Below are positions 1 through 63,640 of a DNA stretch of 64,000 bases, piece after piece. This DNA is from Norana najaformis (taxonomy: Eukaryota; Annelida; Clitellata; Crassiclitellata; Hormogastridae). The stretch covers positions 16,142,049-16,206,048 of the forward strand of contig OZ029914.1 of assembly GCA_964023275.1 (NCBI GenBank). The letters are read 5' to 3'. The notes under the pieces are model-generated. The model saw nothing but the letters and a program-made list of their open reading frames with translations. It did not search any database and was not told the origin of the DNA. How positions within the stretch are numbered: position 1 is the first letter of the stretch; each line of letters starts with the position of its first letter. The position numbers and the translations under genes were made by a program.

Positions 1-478
1 ACTGCAGCAAGGATATACAAAATATATGTGTTTCTTGTGTGAGTGGGATAGCCGAGCAAGAGAGTTGCACTACGTGCGGAAGGAATGGACTCCCAGACAA
101 AACATGGCAGTTGGACAGAAGAATATCCAGCACCCAGCTCTGGTCGAGGCTCACAAAATCCTACTACCACCCCTTCACATCAAACTAGGTTTGGTGAAGA
201 ACTTCGTGAAAGCCATGGACCGCACTTCGCCAGCTTTCCGATACCTGCATGAAAAATTCCCTCGACTCAGCGAAGCAAAGATTAAAGAGGGAGTTTTTGT
301 GGGTCCTCAGATTAGAGAACTCTTCAAAGATGACCGCTTCAACAACTTGCTGGAGGGTGATGCGAAACAAGCATGGAATGCTTTTCGTCTAGTGTCTACA
401 GACTTTCTGGGGAATGTTAGGGCAGAAAACTACAAGGAACTAGTAGAAGACATGCTCAAGCAGTACCAGAAATTTCGC
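1..478 (+). pseudogene. Truncated third copy of the CACTGG-ended transposon ORF
   Basis: The reading frame (codons start at base 2) is open from the window edge and matches the middle of the ORF at 61445-63132, read on the opposite strand there. I see only one residue difference over about 150 residues (P for S in KFPRL/KFSRL). It carries the CFLCEWDS cysteine motif and the LPPLHIKLGL block of the family. Homology stops abruptly after base 478. From 479 the sequence is the second arm of a hairpin in an endonuclease remnant (compare 18126-18170), so the frame runs on into foreign DNA until a stop at 596-598. The 5' part and one inverted repeat lie outside the window. The 3' third, including the GERFHQD motif, is missing, so this copy cannot encode the full protein. 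Confidence 0.85.
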
Positions 479-1931
479 ATCATCATTGGCCCGAGAATCT
501 TGAGATTCGATAGGAAAAAGAAGGCTTATCGCCTCCTAAACCGCCCTCTTTTCTCCGAGTTTAGGTCTATCTTGGAGGTCTTTGCAGTTGTCAAATGATT
601 ATTACTTGCGACTTGAATATTCACCTCGAGGATGGCTCCTCGCTGGATATAGTCCAACTCCTGGTGAGAAAATGCTCAAAAGCATGAAAAAATCTAAGCT
701 ATTTACAAAATGAGCAGGAAGACAAGATAATTTATTTGCCCAAAAATTTTTACAAATTTGAGACATCGATAATTTTATTAAAACTTTTAATAGAATGTTA
801 TTAACTCAATGCTTTAAATAAGTGGTTAGACTGCTATTCGAATTTTAGGCTTTGTTACTCAGAAAAGCGTTTTGCGACAGAAAATAAGAATATACATTTT
901 GAGAAAAGCAAATTTTTGGCAGAATGCAAGAATTCTGTACAAAAGAAACAAAGGACAAACCAAAATAGCAGAAATGCAGCAGCAGCTTTCGTACCTCGCA
1001 TCTTTTCGCTCAGAGACTGAAGAGTTTCTGAAGACTGTTCTAGATCCATTCGAGTACGACAGTGGCGGAGCTTTGGTCGTTGGTATTCTTCGGTTTTGTC
1101 TGATACCCGGCCTCTTGCGGAATGAACTGCACTGGTTACCGATGGAAGGGCATCGAGTTTCAAATTTTGATGCTTATGCGTAATTATTTTGCAGCCGGAG
1201 GCGCTAGGTAAATATGTGATTAGAATTACAATTACATTTAACTAGATAATGGTTTTAACTCTTGTATCTCATGAAGAATTATCAAGACGAATGAGTTTGG
1301 CTGCGTTTTCGTTCGTAGGCCTACTTAATTCGATAGCTTACACAATATTGTCTACTAGCCGGTGCCATCTTATCACAGGAAGTTATTTGACTATGTCTCA
1401 TCCATTCATAGCCGTGGATCCTTTCATTCGGCTGTTAGGATGATCTGATCTGGCATCGTGGCAGTTCAGGCCCACCGCACTTAAGCTTCGCTGTTTTTGG
1501 TCCAAATCTGTGAAATTAATTTGTTTTCCTAGCACCCAAAGGCATGACCTCCTTGACATTTCTTTACCCCTATGCCGTAAGCGCTTGAAAAACATTTTGT
1601 TTGATCGTCGTTTTGTATTGTCAGCTCTAAAGAGCCTCTGATGAGTCTCTGTTGAAGATGCGCTATATAAATCTGTGATTACAATTACAACTGCAATAAA
1701 ATACGCGGTGGTTCGAACTCTTGTGCCTCATGAAAAATTGTCGAAGTGATTCAGTTTGAATGCGTTTTTGTTCATACTTAACTCTATACATTTTGTTTTA
1801 CTAATTCCCACGATCAGCGAACTTACAAAAAAAGCAAACTTATAAAACTACACGTCGTACAAATGCCCAAGCCTTTCTTTGGAATTGCGATAAGTGGGCC
1901 TAGTTAGTTACAGCAATTTTCTCTTTAATAT
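479..1931 (+). mobile_element. L2/CR1-like non-LTR retrotransposon remnants (duplicated intergenic unit)
   Basis: The stretch is a patchwork of decayed non-LTR fragments that recurs at 18130-19000, 21600-22400, 33350-34000 and 37470-38090. Around 550-660 the frames read FSEFRSILEVF and then a DLNIHLED-like string, the typical GDFNIHLD region of an apurinic-type endonuclease domain. Around 1120-1240 and again 1440-1700 the frames resemble the reverse-transcriptase end (LHWLP, then RRLKNILF). Each is followed by a GCGCTATATAAAT-like 3' end and an ATTACAATTACAA-type tail (about 1685). Frames are broken by many stops, so nothing here is expected to be translated. Confidence 0.7.
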
Positions 1932-2048
1932 TCACTGGCCAACACATAATTTGTTGCCTCAAATGTTAGAGCTGTTTCTGGGTATATTTGACCTGCTGAT
2001 TCCAGAAAAGGCACCAGTTTTCTCCCAGCAGGTCTAGTTTTCGAGATA
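1932..2048. repeat. Left terminal inverted repeat of copy 1
   Basis: Pairs imperfectly (roughly 60% by eye) with 4431-4559. The outermost 13 bp, TCACTGGCCAACA, match perfectly. Flanked on the left by TAT. Confidence 0.8.
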
Positions 2049-2248
2049 TAGAACATTATGCCATATACCAGTCCTTGCCTCTGCTCGCCCATAAAACATA
2101 AGGCTATAGCTATAATTATATAGTGCTCAATTTATTATGTGATACACTAAATAAACATAATAATACAAATACTTAAAAGAAAATGGTAGTACCTGAAACT
2201 GTACTTATATGATACCAAACAGAACAAGTTTGTTATAAAAATTTCAAG

Positions 2249-3952
2249 TCATTCGACACCGAAGAAGCTCCTTTTGTACGATTTCCGAGTGTGGCATCTG
2301 CCGGAACAATCGCGCATAATATTCCAGCAATAGTCTGCCATCATGTGTGCATCCCATCTTCCTTGATATCGATTTTCCATTGTTTTGATGTCTTGGTGAA
2401 ATCTTTCACCTTGCTCTTCGCTGAAGTCACCAAGATTCTCTGGAAAGCGATCTAAGTGACTGTGGAGATAATGGACTTTAATGCTCATGTTACAGCCAAG
2501 CTTGTTGAAATGAAGAAGCATATCCTCTACTAGTTGTGCATAATTGTCTGCCTTCTTGTTGCCAAGAAAATTTTTAGTTACAAGAACAAAGGAAGACCAG
2601 GCACAAGATTCGATTTCATTCATTGATGGTATGAAAAGTGGGTCATTCATAAGTTGCCTGATCTGTGGACCATCGAAGATTCCAGCCTTCAATTTTTCCA
2701 TTGTAATTCCTGGTAACTTGTGTACTATGTATTCGAAGCATGAACCTTCTTTATTCAAAGCCCTGACAAATTGTTTCATCAGGCCTAGCTTTATATGTAG
2801 TGGTGGCAGTATGATCCTATCTCGTGCCACCAAAGATTCCTTGATTACATTTTGAGCTCCAACCACCATGTCTTTCCTCGAAGGCCAATCTTTTCTTGTC
2901 CAATGTTCATGCTTGGCTCTACTGTCCCAAAGACACAAAAAGCAGGAATACTTTGTGTAGCCACTTTGTTGACCAAGGAGGAAATTTACCATCTTCAAGT
3001 CTACACAAATTACCCATTGATGTTCTTTGTATTTTATCTTTTCCAGTACTAAAGAGATGGCATCGTACTCTTCTTTCATCCTGGTGGAGTGACCGATTGG
3101 AATAGAACCAAATTTGTTGCCGTTATTTAAAAGCACACATTTCAGACTACGTTTTGAACTGTCGATAAAAAGACGCCACTCATCTGGGCTGTAATCCGAC
3201 AGACCAATTTTCTTCAATAAGTTGCTGATGTCATTACAGAATACTAGGTTGTTGTATTCGGTAAAGAATGGCAGCAAATCCTTTTCTCTGTTTCTATAAA
3301 TTGTAATTTTCGTTCCAGGCTGAAGTGCATTCTTTTCCTTTAGTCTGGACGCAAGCAATTCAGAGGACTCTTTGGAAAGATTTAAGTCCCTGATCAGATC
3401 ACTCAACTCTTTTTGGTCAAAACGTTCACTGTGTGAAGTTGATTGGAAATCACTGTCACTGCCCCCACTTTCTTCACTTTCGTCATCTTGTCCGATATTG
3501 GACATGCAAGTGTCATCGTCTGAGAGCTGAGGTAGTTCGCGAAAAGGTGAAACTGGTACAATATCCGAATGCGGAACAGGTCTCCTGGCTGAAGGTATAT
3601 CAGGGTAAGACAACTTGTGACGATTATTTCGATTGATGCCTATGATATTAACCATACAAAAGTAACAGTCGTCGAAGTGGTTTATCTGTTCCCTCCAAAC
3701 CATCGGTACACCAAATTTCAGGCAGCTTCTCTTTCCAATTGTCCAGTGGCGCAATTGTTCAATACAAGTTTTGCATACTGTATGAGGAGCCCATTGCTTA
3801 TCTTGATCTCCAAGTTTGACACCAAAATAACCTACATATGCTCTTTTTACAAACTCAGAAATCGGTTTCCTGTTTGCTTTTAGTGTGTATTCCCCACAAA
3901 TGTAGCAGAATATGTCTGGATGGTTAATGCAGCTCCGTCTGGAAGTAGCCAT
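2249..3952 (-). CDS. Transposase-like protein of the CACTGG element, 567 aa, intact
   Basis: The intronless ORF starts at ATG 3952 (MATSRR) and ends with TGA at 2249-2251. I recognise it as one of the widespread, repetitive 'uncharacterized protein' families of invertebrate genomes. Visible features in order: C16-x2-C19 and C60-x2-C63 with H57, a treble-clef or ZAD-like zinc motif; DDCYFC at 94-99; an acidic Ser/Asp-rich linker at 143-170; LFIDSS with D264; ICVDLK with D318; C337-x2-C340; LPPLHIKLGL at 382-391; GERFHQD with E516. D264, D318 and E516, with a Cys pair between the second Asp and the Glu, could be an RNase H-fold DDE core. That is inference from spacing and from conservation between the two diverged copies here (roughly half identical by eye). 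Its position inside matched inverted repeats supports a role in transposition. It could instead be a non-transposase passenger. Confidence 0.75.
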   Translation of the reverse strand: MATSRRSCINHPDIFCYICGEYTLKANRKPISEFVKRAYVGYFGVKLGDQDKQWAPHTVCKTCIEQLRHWTIGKRSCLKFGVPMVWREQINHFDDCYFCMVNIIGINRNNRHKLSYPDIPSARRPVPHSDIVPVSPFRELPQLSDDDTCMSNIGQDDESEESGGSDSDFQSTSHSERFDQKELSDLIRDLNLSKESSELLASRLKEKNALQPGTKITIYRNREKDLLPFFTEYNNLVFCNDISNLLKKIGLSDYSPDEWRLFIDSSKRSLKCVLLNNGNKFGSIPIGHSTRMKEEYDAISLVLEKIKYKEHQWVICVDLKMVNFLLGQQSGYTKYSCFLCLWDSRAKHEHWTRKDWPSRKDMVVGAQNVIKESLVARDRIILPPLHIKLGLMKQFVRALNKEGSCFEYIVHKLPGITMEKLKAGIFDGPQIRQLMNDPLFIPSMNEIESCAWSSFVLVTKNFLGNKKADNYAQLVEDMLLHFNKLGCNMSIKVHYLHSHLDRFPENLGDFSEEQGERFHQDIKTMENRYQGRWDAHMMADYCWNIMRDCSGRCHTRKSYKRSFFGVE

Positions 3953-4430
3953 AACCTTAAGGATGTTCGCATCTGAGGAATTAAATGACTAACCTAAAAA
4001 ATAGTAAGAACATGTAGTTATTTAATGCTCACATTCACAGATTGTTCTTGCGACCAACTCTTAATATGCCCTAAGACGACTGCGGCTGCTCTAGCTTTCA
4101 GGAGGCGGTTTATATAGGCTATAAATGCTGACTTCAGCATAATCTATTTACATAGTTCGAAACCATGAAACGCTGTATAAGCACAAATAAATTCTAAATG
4201 AGGCCATGAATTTAGTGCTGAGTAAGCTGTAGGCTACGGAATAGTTATTTCGTTGAATCAGCAATATCTCAGCACGCGGCAAGATATGCTGATTTTACAT
4301 TATAAGGATGTAGGCATTATATGAATCAGCAAGAATTATAATTAGCCATAAATAAAGCTTATTATGACATTTTAGTTTTGCCAAAGACATCGTTTAAAGA
4401 GTGGACTGGGTTTTCTTTACAAAATCGACG

Positions 4431-4559
4431 ATATCTGAGAAACTAGACCTGATGCACTCAATCCAATGACATTTTCTGAATCAGCGCCCAAAATTACCCC
4501 AAGAACAGGTCTAAAACCGAAGGCAACATGAAAAAAAAATTTTTTCTGTTGGCCAGTGA
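4431..4559. repeat. Right terminal inverted repeat of copy 1
   Basis: Reverse complement of the left end, ending GGCCAGTGA and followed by TATCACG. The AGACCT and TTCTGAATCAGCG blocks have inverted partners near 2030 and 2000. Confidence 0.8.
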
Positions 4560-5248
4560 TATCACGCTGCTCTAAACTGTTTACTAACTCAACAGTAGGT
4601 TTCATTGCTTTATCAGCCCGGCCACTGGGCTCACAGGGGGTCCCCTTTATTCTACTGTTGGCCACTGATGGTTGGCTGTGAGTCGAATGCGGATGCATAA
4701 ATTGAAGACGTTGTTTGCATGTACCGACTTCATGACAAAGTTGTTTGTCATAAGTGAAGTTCGTCGACTCTGAAGTTGAGACCTGGATTTAAGCTGAAAC
4801 GTGCAGAGGTACAATAACCCTAGAGACCAATGAGTGAAGAGGTGCTGGCCAGATGGAATAAGCAAATACAGCATTGGAGTTTATGGGTGGGTGATACTCA
4901 TGTTTGAGCTATTTAGGTGGTTGTAAAACTCATTGCATTATTTGCCGAACATGTCTTAAAAATTGACTGCATCGGTGAATCGTGCGTTTTGGAAAAACAG
5001 ATCCAATCGTTACGCTGTGATGATTTTCCAAAGCGACTTCGCCTACTCAGTTTCATGACCATAAGCTATTTACATTATTCAAATGAGTCTTTCTGAAGTG
5101 CGTATATTTGCACACGTGACATGAGCTGAAATACCCTAGATTTTCCACTTCCTCTTTATGCTAAGATTTAAAGCCTCGGAACTCCAACGACCCAGACTTC
5201 ATTGCCTGACGGACGCCGAGAATTCAAACGTCTTCTTTGCACAGAAAA
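4560..5248 (+). promoter_or_regulatory. Conserved upstream region and putative 5' UTR of lysozyme gene 1
   Basis: About 600 bp before the start codon is retained in front of all four lysozyme genes (compare 22440-23056, 38100-38840 and 46600-47078). The strongest block is the last 80-100 bp, with CTTTATGCTAAGATTTAAAG, then GGAACTCCAACGACCCAGAC and GACGGACGCCGAGAATTCA just before the ATG. An AT-rich TTTAAAG could act as a TATA-like element about 75 bp before the ATG. The conservation may reflect recent duplication as well as function, because neighbouring non-coding DNA is also conserved between genes 2 and 3. No transcript evidence is available. Confidence 0.5.
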
Positions 5249-22200: not shown

Positions 22201-23056
22201 CAAAGTGGTTCGAACTCTTGTGCCTCATGGAAAACTGTCCAAATTATTCAGTTTGACTGCGTTTTCGTTTGTACTTAACTCTATACATTTTCTTTTACTA
22301 ATTCCTACGATCAGCGAACTTACAAAAAAGAAAACTTATAAAAATACACCTCCTATAAATGCCCATTCCCTTTCTTTGGAATTGCGATAACTGGGTCTAG
22401 TTAGTCACAACAATTTTCTTTTTACTGTCAAGCTTCTCTAAACTGTTTACAGGCTTGCATTCAATACGCATCTATTTTTACATTGATTCTGAATCAACAG
22501 TAGGCTTCATTGCTTTATCAGCCCGGCCACAGGGCTCATAGGGGGTTCGCATTATTCCATTGTGAAGTTCGTCGACTCTGACGTTGAGACCTGGATTTAA
22601 GCTGAATCGTGCAGAGGTACAATAACCCTAGGGACCAATGAGTGAAGAGGTGCTGGCCAGATGGAATAAGCATATACAGCATTCGAGTTTATGGGTGGGT
22701 GATACTCATGTTTGAGCTATTTAGGTGGTTGTAAAACTCATTGCATAACATGCCACCCATGTCTTAAAAATTGAATGCATCGGTGAATCATGCGTTTTGG
22801 AAAAACAGATCCAATCGTTACGCTGTGATGATTTTCAACAGCCACTTCGCCTACTCAGTTTCATGACCGTAAGCTATTTACATTATTCAAATGACTCTTT
22901 CTGAAGTGCGTATATTTCCACACGTGACTTGAACTGAAATACCCTGGATTTTCCACTTCCTCTTTATGCTAAGATTTAAAGTCTCGGAACTCCAACGACC
23001 CAGACTTCATTGCCTGACGGACGCCGAGAATTCAAACGTCTTCTTTGCACGGAAAA
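22201..23056 (+). promoter_or_regulatory. Upstream region of lysozyme gene 2
   Basis: Shares the conserved upstream block with the other lysozyme genes. The nearest part (about 22960-23056) has the same TTTAAAG, AACTCCAACGACCCAGAC and GACGCCGAGAATTCA strings before the ATG. About 110 bp present before genes 1 and 3 is missing near 22560. Confidence 0.45.
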
Positions 23057-37880: not shown

Positions 37881-38840
37881 TAAAATACAAAGTGGTTCGA
37901 ACTCTTGTGCCTCATGGAAAACTGTCCAAATTATTCAGTTTGACTGCGTTTTCGTTTGTACTTAACTCTATACATTTTGTTTTACTAATTCCCACGATCA
38001 GCGAACTTTCAAAAAAGGAAACTTATGAAAATACACCTCCTATAAATGCCATCCCCGTTCTTTGGAATTGCGATAACTTGGTCTAGTTAGTCACAAAAGT
38101 TTTCTCATTACTGTCACGCTTCTCTAAACTGTTTACAGGCTTGCATTCAATACACGGCCGTTTTGACTTTGATTCTGACTCAACAGTAGGTTTCATTGCT
38201 TTATCAGCCCGGCCACTGGGCTCACAGGGGGTTCGCATTATTCTATTGTTGGTAAATGACGGTCGGCTATGAGTCGATTGCGGAAGCATAAATTGAAGAC
38301 ATTGTTTTCATGTACCAACTTTATGACAAACTTGTTTTGTCATAAGTGAAGTTCGCCGACTCTGACGTTGAGACCTGGATTTAAGCTGAATCGTGCAGAG
38401 GTACAATAACCCTAGGGACCAATGAGTGAAGAGGTGCTGGCCAGATGGAATAAGCGTATACAGCATTCGAGTTTATGGGTGGGTGATACTCATGTTTGAG
38501 CTATTTAGGTGGTTGTAAAACTCATTGCATTACATGCCGTACATATCTTAAAAATTGACTGCATCGGTGAATCATGCGTTTTGGAAAAACAGATCCAATC
38601 GTTACGCTGTGATGATTTTCAACAGCCACTTCGCCTACTCAGTTTCACGACCGTAAGTTATTTACATTATTCAAATGACTCTTTCTGAAGTGCGTATATT
38701 TCCACACGTGACTTGAACTGAAATACCCTGGATTTTCCACTTCCTCTTTATGCTAAGATTTAAAGCCTCGGAACTCCAACGACCCAGACTTCATTGCCTG
38801 ACGGACGCCGAGAATTCAAACGTCTTCTTTGCCCAGAAAA
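37881..38840 (+). promoter_or_regulatory. Upstream region of lysozyme gene 3
   Basis: Paralogue of the regions before genes 1 and 2. The last 90 bp carries the same TTTAAAG, AACTCCAACGACCCAGAC and CGCCGAGAATTCAAACG strings. It shows the empty site of the CACTGG element around 38097-38118. Confidence 0.45.
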
Positions 38841-61232: not shown

Positions 61233-63582
61233 TCACTGGACAACAAATTTTTACAAAAGTCATGTTACTGAAATGAAATTAGTCAGTTCTTATCAATTTG
61301 TATGTGCTGAACACGAATATGACAGTGAAAATGTCGAATTGGCTCTAGTTTTTTTGTAATCTGAAATGAAGTAATTTTATATCGCACAATGCATGCCAAT
61401 AGTGATACACTTACAGGTAATATTTGTAAAAACCAGGTCATAGACTAGTTCTTAGATTTTTTTGCCTGTCTCTTGTACAGCTGTTCGGGAGCATCTCTGC
61501 GGAGTGTCCAGCAGTAGTCAGCCAACATTGTAGTGGACCATTTTCCCTGGTACCTTTGCTCCATTGTTGCGATATCTTGATGAAAACGTTCGCCATGTTC
61601 GTCACTAACCATACCACAGTTGTCAGGGAAGAAATCCAGATGGGAATGAAGGAAATGCATCTTCAGAGACATATTGCAGCGAAATTTCTGGTACTGCTTG
61701 AGCATGTCTTCTACTAGTTCCTTGTAGTTTTCTGCCCTAACATTCCCCAGAAAGTCTGTAGACACTAGACGAAAAGCATTCCATGCTTGTTTCGCATCAC
61801 CCTCCAGCAAGTTGTTGAAGCGGTCATCTTTGAAGAGTTCTCTAATCTGAGGACCCACAAAAACTCCCTCTTTAATCTTTGCTTCGCTGAGTCGAGAGAA
61901 TTTTTCATGCAGGTATCGGAAAGCTGGCGAAGTGCGGTCCATGGCTTTCACGAAGTTCTTCACCAAACCTAGTTTGATGTGAAGGGGTGGTAGTAGGATT
62001 TTGTGAGCCTCGACGAGAGCTGGGTGCTGGATATTCTTCTGTCCAACTGCCATGTTTTGTCTGGGAGTCCATTCCTTCCGCACGTAGTGCAACTCTCTTG
62101 CTCGGCTATCCCACTCACACAAGAAACACATATATTTTGTATATCCTTGCTGCAGTCCCATTAAAATGGCAACTACCTTCAAATCACCACACAGGTGCCA
62201 TTTGTACCTGTTATAGTCAATGGAATGCAGTAGCTGTTTTAGGTTATCGTATGTCTCTTTCATGTGGACAGCATGCGCTAATGGAATAGATGGAAGACGG
62301 TTTCCATTGTGCAAAAGCACAGCCTTAAGACTCAGTGTTGAAGAGTCTACAAAGAGTCTCCATTCTTGTGGGTCATGAGTGATCTGTAAGGCATTCATGA
62401 GGTCGTCAATATTGGAACAGAATACCAGATTACCTTCCTTCATAAAGAAAGGTACCAACTGCTGATGGCGCTTTCTATATGAAGTAATTGTGACATCTTC
62501 TTCTAGAAGATTCCATTGTTGGAGTCTTGATCCTAGCAATTCTGCCTTGTTTTTGGATAAGTCCAAATCACGAACAAGGTCATTTAGTTCTTCCTGTGTT
62601 ATTCTGTGTGGGGTTGATGATGCACCACAGTGAAAATCGGGATCACTGCACGCTGACGGACCAGGAGAAGAACATGTCGGCTCACCCTTGTCCTCATCAG
62701 ATGAATCAAGGAAAATATATTCTGCTGGAGGTTCTGGAATAGGAAGTCCATCACCATGTGGAACTGGTCTCAATGCTGACGGAATGTTTGGGTAGACTAT
62801 TGTCGACTTCTTTTGCTTCGTTATTTCACCGGAAAGAGGAGGAACCAAGCAGAAGTAACAGTCATCTACGTGGTTGCTTTGCTCTCTCCACACCATGGGA
62901 ACTGCAAACGGCATTGATGGTCTTTTGCCATTCAACCACTGTGAAAGCTGTGTTGTACATGTAGCACAGCATATATGCGGGGCCCATGGCTTGTCTTGGT
63001 CACCAACCTTGCATTCGAAGTAAGCATGATATGCCTTCTTGACTTGATAAGTGATACTTTTCTTCTGGTTGGCAAATGTCACTTCCAAATGTAACAAAAG
63101 TTGTCCACAGTATTTACGCACTTCCGAGGCATTACTGTTCTGTATTGTATCTAAATGGATAAAGTAATAATAGTTTTATAAAACAGTAACTTAAACTGTC
63201 TCGCACAAAGTCTGTAATATTGTAAATGCTCAACCGTTCCGACTCGCTTTATATAGTACACTGCTGACGTCATCTTACGTCAGCAGCCGACTGGCTGTAG
63301 TTTTACATTGCATCAGAAAATGACGTAATCAACTGTGCATGATGTGTCCATGATGGGATTATGCAATGAGGTGGAATATTACATCATTCTAGACTTAATT
63401 AGGATATTGTCGCAGTTCTACTGCATAAATTTACATGGTGAAACATAAAAAATGAACTATATGAAATATTTTCAAAACGAGAGCCAATAAAAATTTTTTA
63501 TGGTTATATTCGTGTTCAGCACACCAAGATGCTACACATTAGGGCCTTTTCCAGTCAGTAACGATTTCTATGTTGACCAGTG
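61233..63582 (-). mobile_element. DNA-transposon-like element, CACTGG ends (copy 2)
   Basis: The left end begins TTCACTGGACAACA and the right end is inverse, TGTTGACCAGTG. Inner blocks pair further: TGTGCTGAACACGAATAT (61303-61320) with its inverse at 63503-63523, and ATTGGCTCT with AGAGCCAAT. The whole inverted repeat is about 120 bp with a small indel. The element sits inside a reverse transcriptase pseudogene, with TTA on both sides as target duplication. Its right border carries an additional inverted copy of flank (63585-63612). The ORF is frameshifted near its start. Confidence 0.85.
61445..63132 (-). pseudogene. Transposase-like ORF of copy 2, frameshifted near the N-terminus
   Basis: From 63121 down to the stop at 61445-61447 the frame is open for about 558 codons and parallels the intact protein at 2249-3952: GDQDKPWAPH, DDCYFC, LFVDSS, LCGDLK, CFLCEW, LPPLHIKLGL, GERFHQD, YQGKW. 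The family start, ATG at 63130-63132 (MPRKCV...NFCYI), is in another frame. Compared with copy 1's FCYICGE, four bases are missing at the second cysteine codon (about 63090). The full-length protein therefore cannot be made. A product from an internal ATG would lack the Cys motif. Copy 1 and this copy are roughly half identical, so they are distinct subfamilies. Confidence 0.8.
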
Positions 63583-63584
63583 GT

Positions 63585-63640
63585 ACCAATCCTAAAATCG
63601 TTGCACTGGTTATAACCAGTGCAACGATTTTAGGATTGGT
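63585..63640. repeat. Perfect 56-bp palindrome at the right border of transposon copy 2
   Basis: The left 28 bp (ACCAATCCTAAAATCG...GGTTA) are the exact reverse complement of the right 28 bp, with no spacer. The right half is the genuine reverse-transcriptase flank (ISPILKSLHWL on the minus strand). The left half is its inverted copy, lying between the flank and the element end. Confidence 0.95.

Follow-up and report, generated by a model that had tools for sequence, protein, structure and literature searches.

A complete element in the window

The window (the whole 64,000-nucleotide stretch of DNA analysed here) carries one complete transposon of the family described below, two segments that represent its empty site, and, towards both edges, sequences of a second lineage that are considered later. 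The first set of features is as follows.

1933..4558, minus strand: complete lineage-1 element, CACTGGCC...GGCCAGTG, 2,626 bp, its ends fixed by 36 full-length copies; empty paralogues are present
1933..1949, no strand: 3' terminal inverted repeat, distal to the ORF, CACTGGCCAACACATAA; CACTGGCCAACACATAATTTG has 1,318 matches genome-wide
4542..4558, no strand: 5' terminal inverted repeat, proximal to the ORF; CACTGGCCAACAGAAAA has 1,318 matches genome-wide
2249..3952, minus strand: transposase ORF, 567 aa, single exon
1928..1931, plus strand: left-hand unit of the ATAT direct repeat at the flanks, followed by an extra T at 1932
4559..4562, plus strand: right-hand unit of the ATAT direct repeat at the flanks
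38061..38200, plus strand: empty site, a paralogous segment without the insert
22375..22510, plus strand: empty site, a paralogous segment without the insert

A first-pass annotation of this DNA had proposed a complete mobile DNA transposon here, and the ends, the empty sites and an ORF for a plausible DDE transposase bear this out. The inverted repeats, at 1932-1949 and 4542-4559, are 89% complementary over 18 nt, and the paralogous segments near 22.42 and 38.11 kb indeed lack the insert. Its limits need a small correction. The repeats had been read as starting (T)CACTGG; since full-length copies elsewhere in the genome end at CACTGG/CCAGTG, the element corresponds to 1933-4558 and not to 1932-4559, so that CACTGG...CCAGTG stands while the additional T/A belongs to the flank. 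Nor is the element bordered by TAT on both sides, as had been thought: the window copy has ATAT flanks plus one extra T, at a place where both empty paralogues read CTGT. It is one of the irregular copies, without a plain 3-bp target-site duplication (TSD). A candidate third paralogous segment (unaligned) lies near 55.78 kb.

The transposase and its predicted fold

The ORF at 2249-3952 (minus strand) is uninterrupted over its 567 codons, and D264, D318, C337, C340 and E516, which the first-pass annotation had singled out as conserved, occupy those positions, and none of them varies among five proteins that represent three lineages from the same genome. Between D318 and E516 lie C337/C340, L385-H386 and H494/H499, again invariant in the five sequences of three lineages; since H497 is not invariant, the histidine motif is H494-x4-H499. 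D264, D318 and E516 would constitute the catalytic triad. Three CxxC pairs are also present (C16/C19, C60/C63 and C96/C99), of which C60/C63 and C96/C99 are invariant in the five-protein alignment and C16 is not covered by every row. These Cys pairs may form a putative 'Chapa' zinc finger, an N-terminal domain named in Chapaev3 (PMC4411706).

AlphaFold2, with an input alignment of the two window sequences only, gave two low-confidence models, one of the full-length protein (mean pLDDT 36.9) and one of residues 228-350 (mean pLDDT 56.2). The first predicts strands at 259-266, 269-276 and 284-289, a helix at 292-305, a strand at 313-318, a helix at 319-325, a strand at 337-342, a long helical stretch and a helix at 512-528 that contains E516; D264 falls within the first strand, and the strand 313-318 ends at D318. 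This predicted order is that of an RNase H core, making an RNase H fold plausible for the 567-aa protein. Foldseek comparison of the predicted models with PDB and BFVD produced no significant match; given the low confidence of both models, nothing beyond the succession of strands and helices was used.

Sequence searches of Pfam, NCBIfam, PHROGs and PDB with the 567-aa protein returned nothing significant, and neither phage records nor viral or prokaryote contigs yielded any relatives of it. The protein has a weak zf-AD match (E 0.0047) below its cut-off; a zf-AD N-terminus was dropped as a candidate because three other proteins of the family give no such match.

Copies in the genome and their target sites

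A search with the protein covered the entire genome (608 Mb, 17 contigs), and 77 of the 6,418 first-look candidates were scored; 76 of these 77 have no inner stop, and identities are 99-100%. The best 50 loci were fetched, the window's own copy included. Both ends are present in 36 loci and one end in the remaining 14 (L041 and L046, whose apparent 5' ends proved false, are not among the 36), and among the 36 full-length copies CACTGG and CCAGTG are exact in 34, with a point change in L016 and L028. Compared to their own consensus, the full-length copies diverge by 0.28% on average and by 0.50% at most, an age estimate that leans young because the copies were picked by protein score. For the same reason dN/dS-like ratios (0.53 with two misplaced loci; 0.36) were left unused. 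The element is young, recently amplified and dispersed in its own genome.

Exact ends number 1,318 (5') and 1,318 (3') genome-wide. Pairing was sampled on contig C1 up to 50.04 Mb, where 98 5' ends and 100 3' ends are among the matches listed. Of these 98 listed 5' ends, 72 pair with a 3' end inside 3 kb, and 66 have a partner at 2,600-2,640 bp; five listed pairs are shorter (1884, 2321, 2374, 2565 and 2597 bp) and three, at 4.8-5.0 kb, are longer and likely mispaired. Extrapolation from the C1 sample suggests perhaps ~900 near-full-length copies in the genome. At G000:C1:4020208-4027286, four lineage-1 5' ends in one orientation form a tandem run with a spacing of ~2.3-2.4 kb, less than the length of the element.

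An exact 3-bp duplication is found at 24 of the 36 full-length copies (TAA 13, TTA 6, ATA 2, and TAG, TAT and AAA 1 each), TWA being the usual duplication of the family. Shuffled flanks gave a mean of 10.0 such duplications, and 0 of 5,000 shuffles reached 24. The other 12 of 36, the window copy included, have no exact 3-bp duplication. The anticipated pattern of copies ending at CACTGG with 3-bp duplications is thus mostly, not uniformly, observed (both ends in 36/50, exact duplication in 24/36). Position -4 is A in 32/36 full-length copies, and position +4 is T in 28/36. ATWA adjoins 922 of the 1,318 exact 5' ends and 908 of the 1,318 exact 3' ends, compared with 0 for reversed-pattern controls. 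Among the matches listed, ATWA lies on both sides of 37 of the 72 C1 end pairs, on one side of 15 and on neither side of 20; where it is on both sides the two are complementary in 37/37 pairs, which is what a duplication requires. A 4-bp repeat offset by one base occurs in 5/36 full-length copies, a weak signal that 72 of 5,000 shuffles reach.

In the mechanism that we propose, the N-terminal Cys-rich part of the 567-aa protein would bind the element ends. Cutting at CAC/GTG would be the task of an RNase H-like DDE core (D264, D318, E516), interrupted by a long helical insertion that would carry the motifs C(2)C, LH and H(4)H. The protein would then join both 3' ends, staggered by 3 bp, to the target A^TWA^T, and filling of this stagger would give rise to the TWA duplication.

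Other lineages

Relatives of the element are present in the window and elsewhere in the genome. Those in the window, which the first-pass annotation had not reported, are the following.

61234..63582, minus strand: second element, lineage 2, 2,349 bp, ends CACTGGTCAACA / TGTTGTCCAGTG; 902 exact 5' ends in the genome
61457-63127: transposase-like frame of the second element, its protein 49% identical to lineage 1
1..478, plus strand: lineage-2 fragment that corresponds to positions 1427-1904 of the element and is interrupted by the edge of the window; similarity stops at 478

The second element is Chapaev3-like, and its flanks have no plain 3-bp duplication; the genome search gave 78 scored matches for lineage 2. 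For the fragment at 1-478, a 50-bp duplication ending GGCTTA was sought at the 50-bp length only, without a match. Two bases past the end of the second element, positions 63585-63640 form a perfect 56-bp palindrome with the centre CACTGGTTATAACCAGTG, an arrangement that resembles two element ends placed head to head.

A motif pattern built to miss lineages 1 and 2 gave 490 matches, compared with 0 for a control, and all ten loci cut out from these matches encode relatives of the protein. They represent two additional lineages or more, with identities of 51-52% and 45-51%, and a more distant sequence, L064. Where the ends are present, those of lineage 2 (four loci) and the 3' end of an additional lineage (three loci) read CACTGG/CCAGTG; most, not all, of these ends adjoin TWA-like flanks. 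A search for the ends of the third lineage gave none.

Relationship to Chapaev3 elements

In the published description of Chapaev3 (PMC4079192), the elements have CAC/GTG ends and a TWA duplication always located between A and T, and the transposase (556 aa in Garfield) is mostly encoded by one exon and contains C(2)C, LH and H(4)H. The element studied here has 5'-CAC...GTG-3' termini, with both ends in 36/50 loci, and TAA or TTA makes up 19 of its 24 exact duplications, preceded by A and followed by T mostly, where the paper has always. C(2)C, LH and H(4)H accompany D264/D318/E516, and the transposase, at 567 aa and uninterrupted, agrees with the ~550 aa and single exon of the group. The family had been called possibly undescribed in the first-pass annotation, which compared CACTA only; that view gives way to the Chapaev3 hallmarks. 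We conclude, with a probability of about 0.88, that the segment is an autonomous cut-and-paste DNA transposon fitting the Chapaev3 group of the CACTA-Mirage-Chapaev-Transib (CMCT) clade. By these hallmarks, as published for the named Chapaev3 elements, it is probably a new family of a known kind.

An undescribed kind of element would account for the lack of significant matches in Pfam, NCBIfam, PHROGs and PDB and for the absence of relatives from phage records and from viral and prokaryote contigs. However, in searches run with no Chapaev protein as a positive control the absence of library matches says little, and such a coincidence of TWA with A/T alongside, CAC..GTG, a length of 567 aa (556 in Garfield), a single exon and three motifs with Chapaev3 makes this reading improbable. 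We consider it just as improbable that the element belongs to CACTA/EnSpm, to Chapaev with its 4-bp duplication or to another CMCT lineage. CACTA transposases are longer than the 567-aa protein, and the Transib duplication is 5 bp, compared with the 3-bp TWA of the element. The CACTA termini of CACTA/EnSpm are not found either, the termini being CACTGG. In favour of such a placement, C(2)C, H(3-4)H and mostly CA..TG ends with 2-5-bp duplications are common to the whole clade, which also includes RAG1 (PMC12730594), but TWA between A and T together with mostly single-exon transposases is reported for Chapaev3 in particular (PMC4079192).

Truncated copies with long target duplications

In 14 of the 50 fetched loci one end is short by 34-307 bp. 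Ten of the 54 unpaired C1 ends (26 of 98 5' ends and 28 of 100 3' ends among the matches listed) were also fetched as an end-selected sample; it is non-random, all ten being on the plus strand and near the start of the list, with three of the tandem run skipped, and ATWA adjoins all ten ends, compared with 40 of the 54 unpaired ends among the matches listed. Eight of the ten are truncated, whereas L067 is full-length with a changed end and L071 is one base short. The truncated copies considered below are therefore these 14 plus 8, or 22, with L016 (changed last base) counted as full-length and L071 (5-bp repeat) left out.

In 14 of the 22 truncated copies (L005, L010, L020, L022, L023, L026, L029, L033, L035, L040, L046, L066, L069 and L070), a target sequence of 7-56 bp lies directly at the intact end and again directly at the truncated junction, the two repeat copies differing at 1-2 places in L010, L020, L022 and L033. 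The other eight comprise L041, L068, L072 and L073, which are in tandem or low-complexity targets, L007 and L074 with a 3-bp duplication, and L025 and L065 without a duplication. The end lost among the 14 is the 5' end in nine and the 3' end in five, and the intact end adjoins TAA or TTA in ten, TAG in L040, and AAA, CGA and CAA in L010, L029 and L035, respectively. Microhomology is present at the truncated junction in 14/14 (1-6 nt, mean 2.1 nt compared with 0.37 expected).

The length lost and the length of the duplication are correlated (Spearman 0.82, n=14; 16/50,000 permutations). The coefficient is 0.87 when the two 3-bp cases are added, 0.89 when L025 and L065 are added too, and 0.56 over all 23 rows initially classed as truncated, which include the four tandem or low-complexity cases, L016 and L071. 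A search of each locus for other copies of the repeat, with up to 25% mismatch for repeats of at least 10 bp and exact matching for shorter ones, found none in 12 cases out of 14. Near-copies occur several times in L026, at one place 89 bp away, and L040 has two inverted matches with 2-3 mismatches. Flanks of different loci share at least 7 bp in 5 of 506 pairings, 23 bp at most. The lineage-2 copy L053 has lost 22 bp and has an 8-bp repeat in a repetitive target. At two loci further rearrangements were seen: in L065 (G000:C1:908931-911800) the last 17 bp of the element are inverted at the 5' end and the 3' end is 13 bp short, and L066 (G000:C1:3579698-3582560) has a duplicated internal stretch besides its 31-bp target duplication.

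A possible one-ended origin of the truncated copies

We infer that these 14 truncated copies are one-ended insertions finished by resection, strand-displacement synthesis and microhomology joining. In a minority of events the transposase would join one end only to a normal target, and the free transposon end would then be resected. The target strand would keep a free 3' end opposite the unbroken strand, and this end would be extended by strand displacement, copying the target past the usual 3 bp, until a microhomology join (1-6 nt) stopped both processes and left a truncated copy with a long target duplication. Such a course of events would give the position of the duplication, the coupling of both lengths and the microhomology. 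Among the matches listed, 54 of 126 inferred C1 copies (72 pairs plus 54 lone ends) are lone-ended; with 8 of 10 lone ends being true truncations and 14 of 22 truncations clean, about one fifth of copies is the resulting estimate. That some fifth of the copies arose in this manner, by resection, target-strand extension and a Pol theta-like microhomology join, and serve as a fossil clock, seems to us to have slightly better than an even chance.

The main rival is aborted gap repair after excision, whereby one arm copies the element from the sister and the other copies the empty homologue past the target before the two anneal. This would also yield truncation, an extended duplication and microhomology, and L007 and L074, which are truncated with a normal 3-bp duplication, fit a simple form of it. 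As an account of the long duplications we nevertheless think it unlikely, since it predicts truncation points spread over 2,625 bp and independent of duplication length, whereas seven of the eight end-selected truncations lost at most 352 of 2,625 bp (binomial 5.5e-6) and the two lengths are coupled in the 14 clean copies (Spearman 0.82). Chance matches or tandem-repeat targets could underlie the repeats of L041, L068, L072, L073 and the lineage-2 copy L053, and in part that of L026, and unrelated flanks do reach at least 7 bp in 5/506 pairings and once 23 bp. For the 14 copies as a group, however, such an origin is very improbable: the repeat is flush with both the intact end and the truncated junction, and, with the exceptions of L026 and L040, the search of the locus found only two copies of it (12/14).

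Significance and comparison with known systems

The truncation signature is the novel part of these results; the element itself is probably a new member of a known group. The truncated copies are the part that specialists would want tested. They would show the fate of half-finished transposition in a genome and its closure by the host, and would make one-end joining by a DDE transposase visible in a clade that also contains RAG1. If the interpretation as one-ended insertions is true, the growth of both lengths together makes each truncated copy a fossil clock of the lifetime of the half-joined intermediate. In addition, the ~900 near-full-length, low-divergence copies extrapolated for the genome offer ready material for a Chapaev3 system that may still be functional.

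The element resembles Chapaev3 (Garfield, Merrow and Conan; PMC4079192) in its ends, in TWA between A and T, in protein length and in C(2)C, LH and H(4)H. Truncated copies with long duplications find no mention in the available portion of that paper. With CACTA/EnSpm and the CMCT clade including Transib and RAG1 (PMC12730594, PMC4411706), it has in common the placing of C(2)C and H(4)H between the second D and the E, and its N-terminal Cys-rich region may match the 'Chapa' zinc finger. A narrow search of open papers, PMC3952818 and PMC4423477 among them, found no truncated DNA transposons with long duplications. Single-ended transposition is known from plasmid assays of piggyBac, with Mos1 and Tn21 cited in the same source (PMC3952818), and the events proposed here are alike in that one transposon end takes part in the join. 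Compared to those plasmid assays, the present cases are natural genomic copies, in which the target duplication grows with the truncation.
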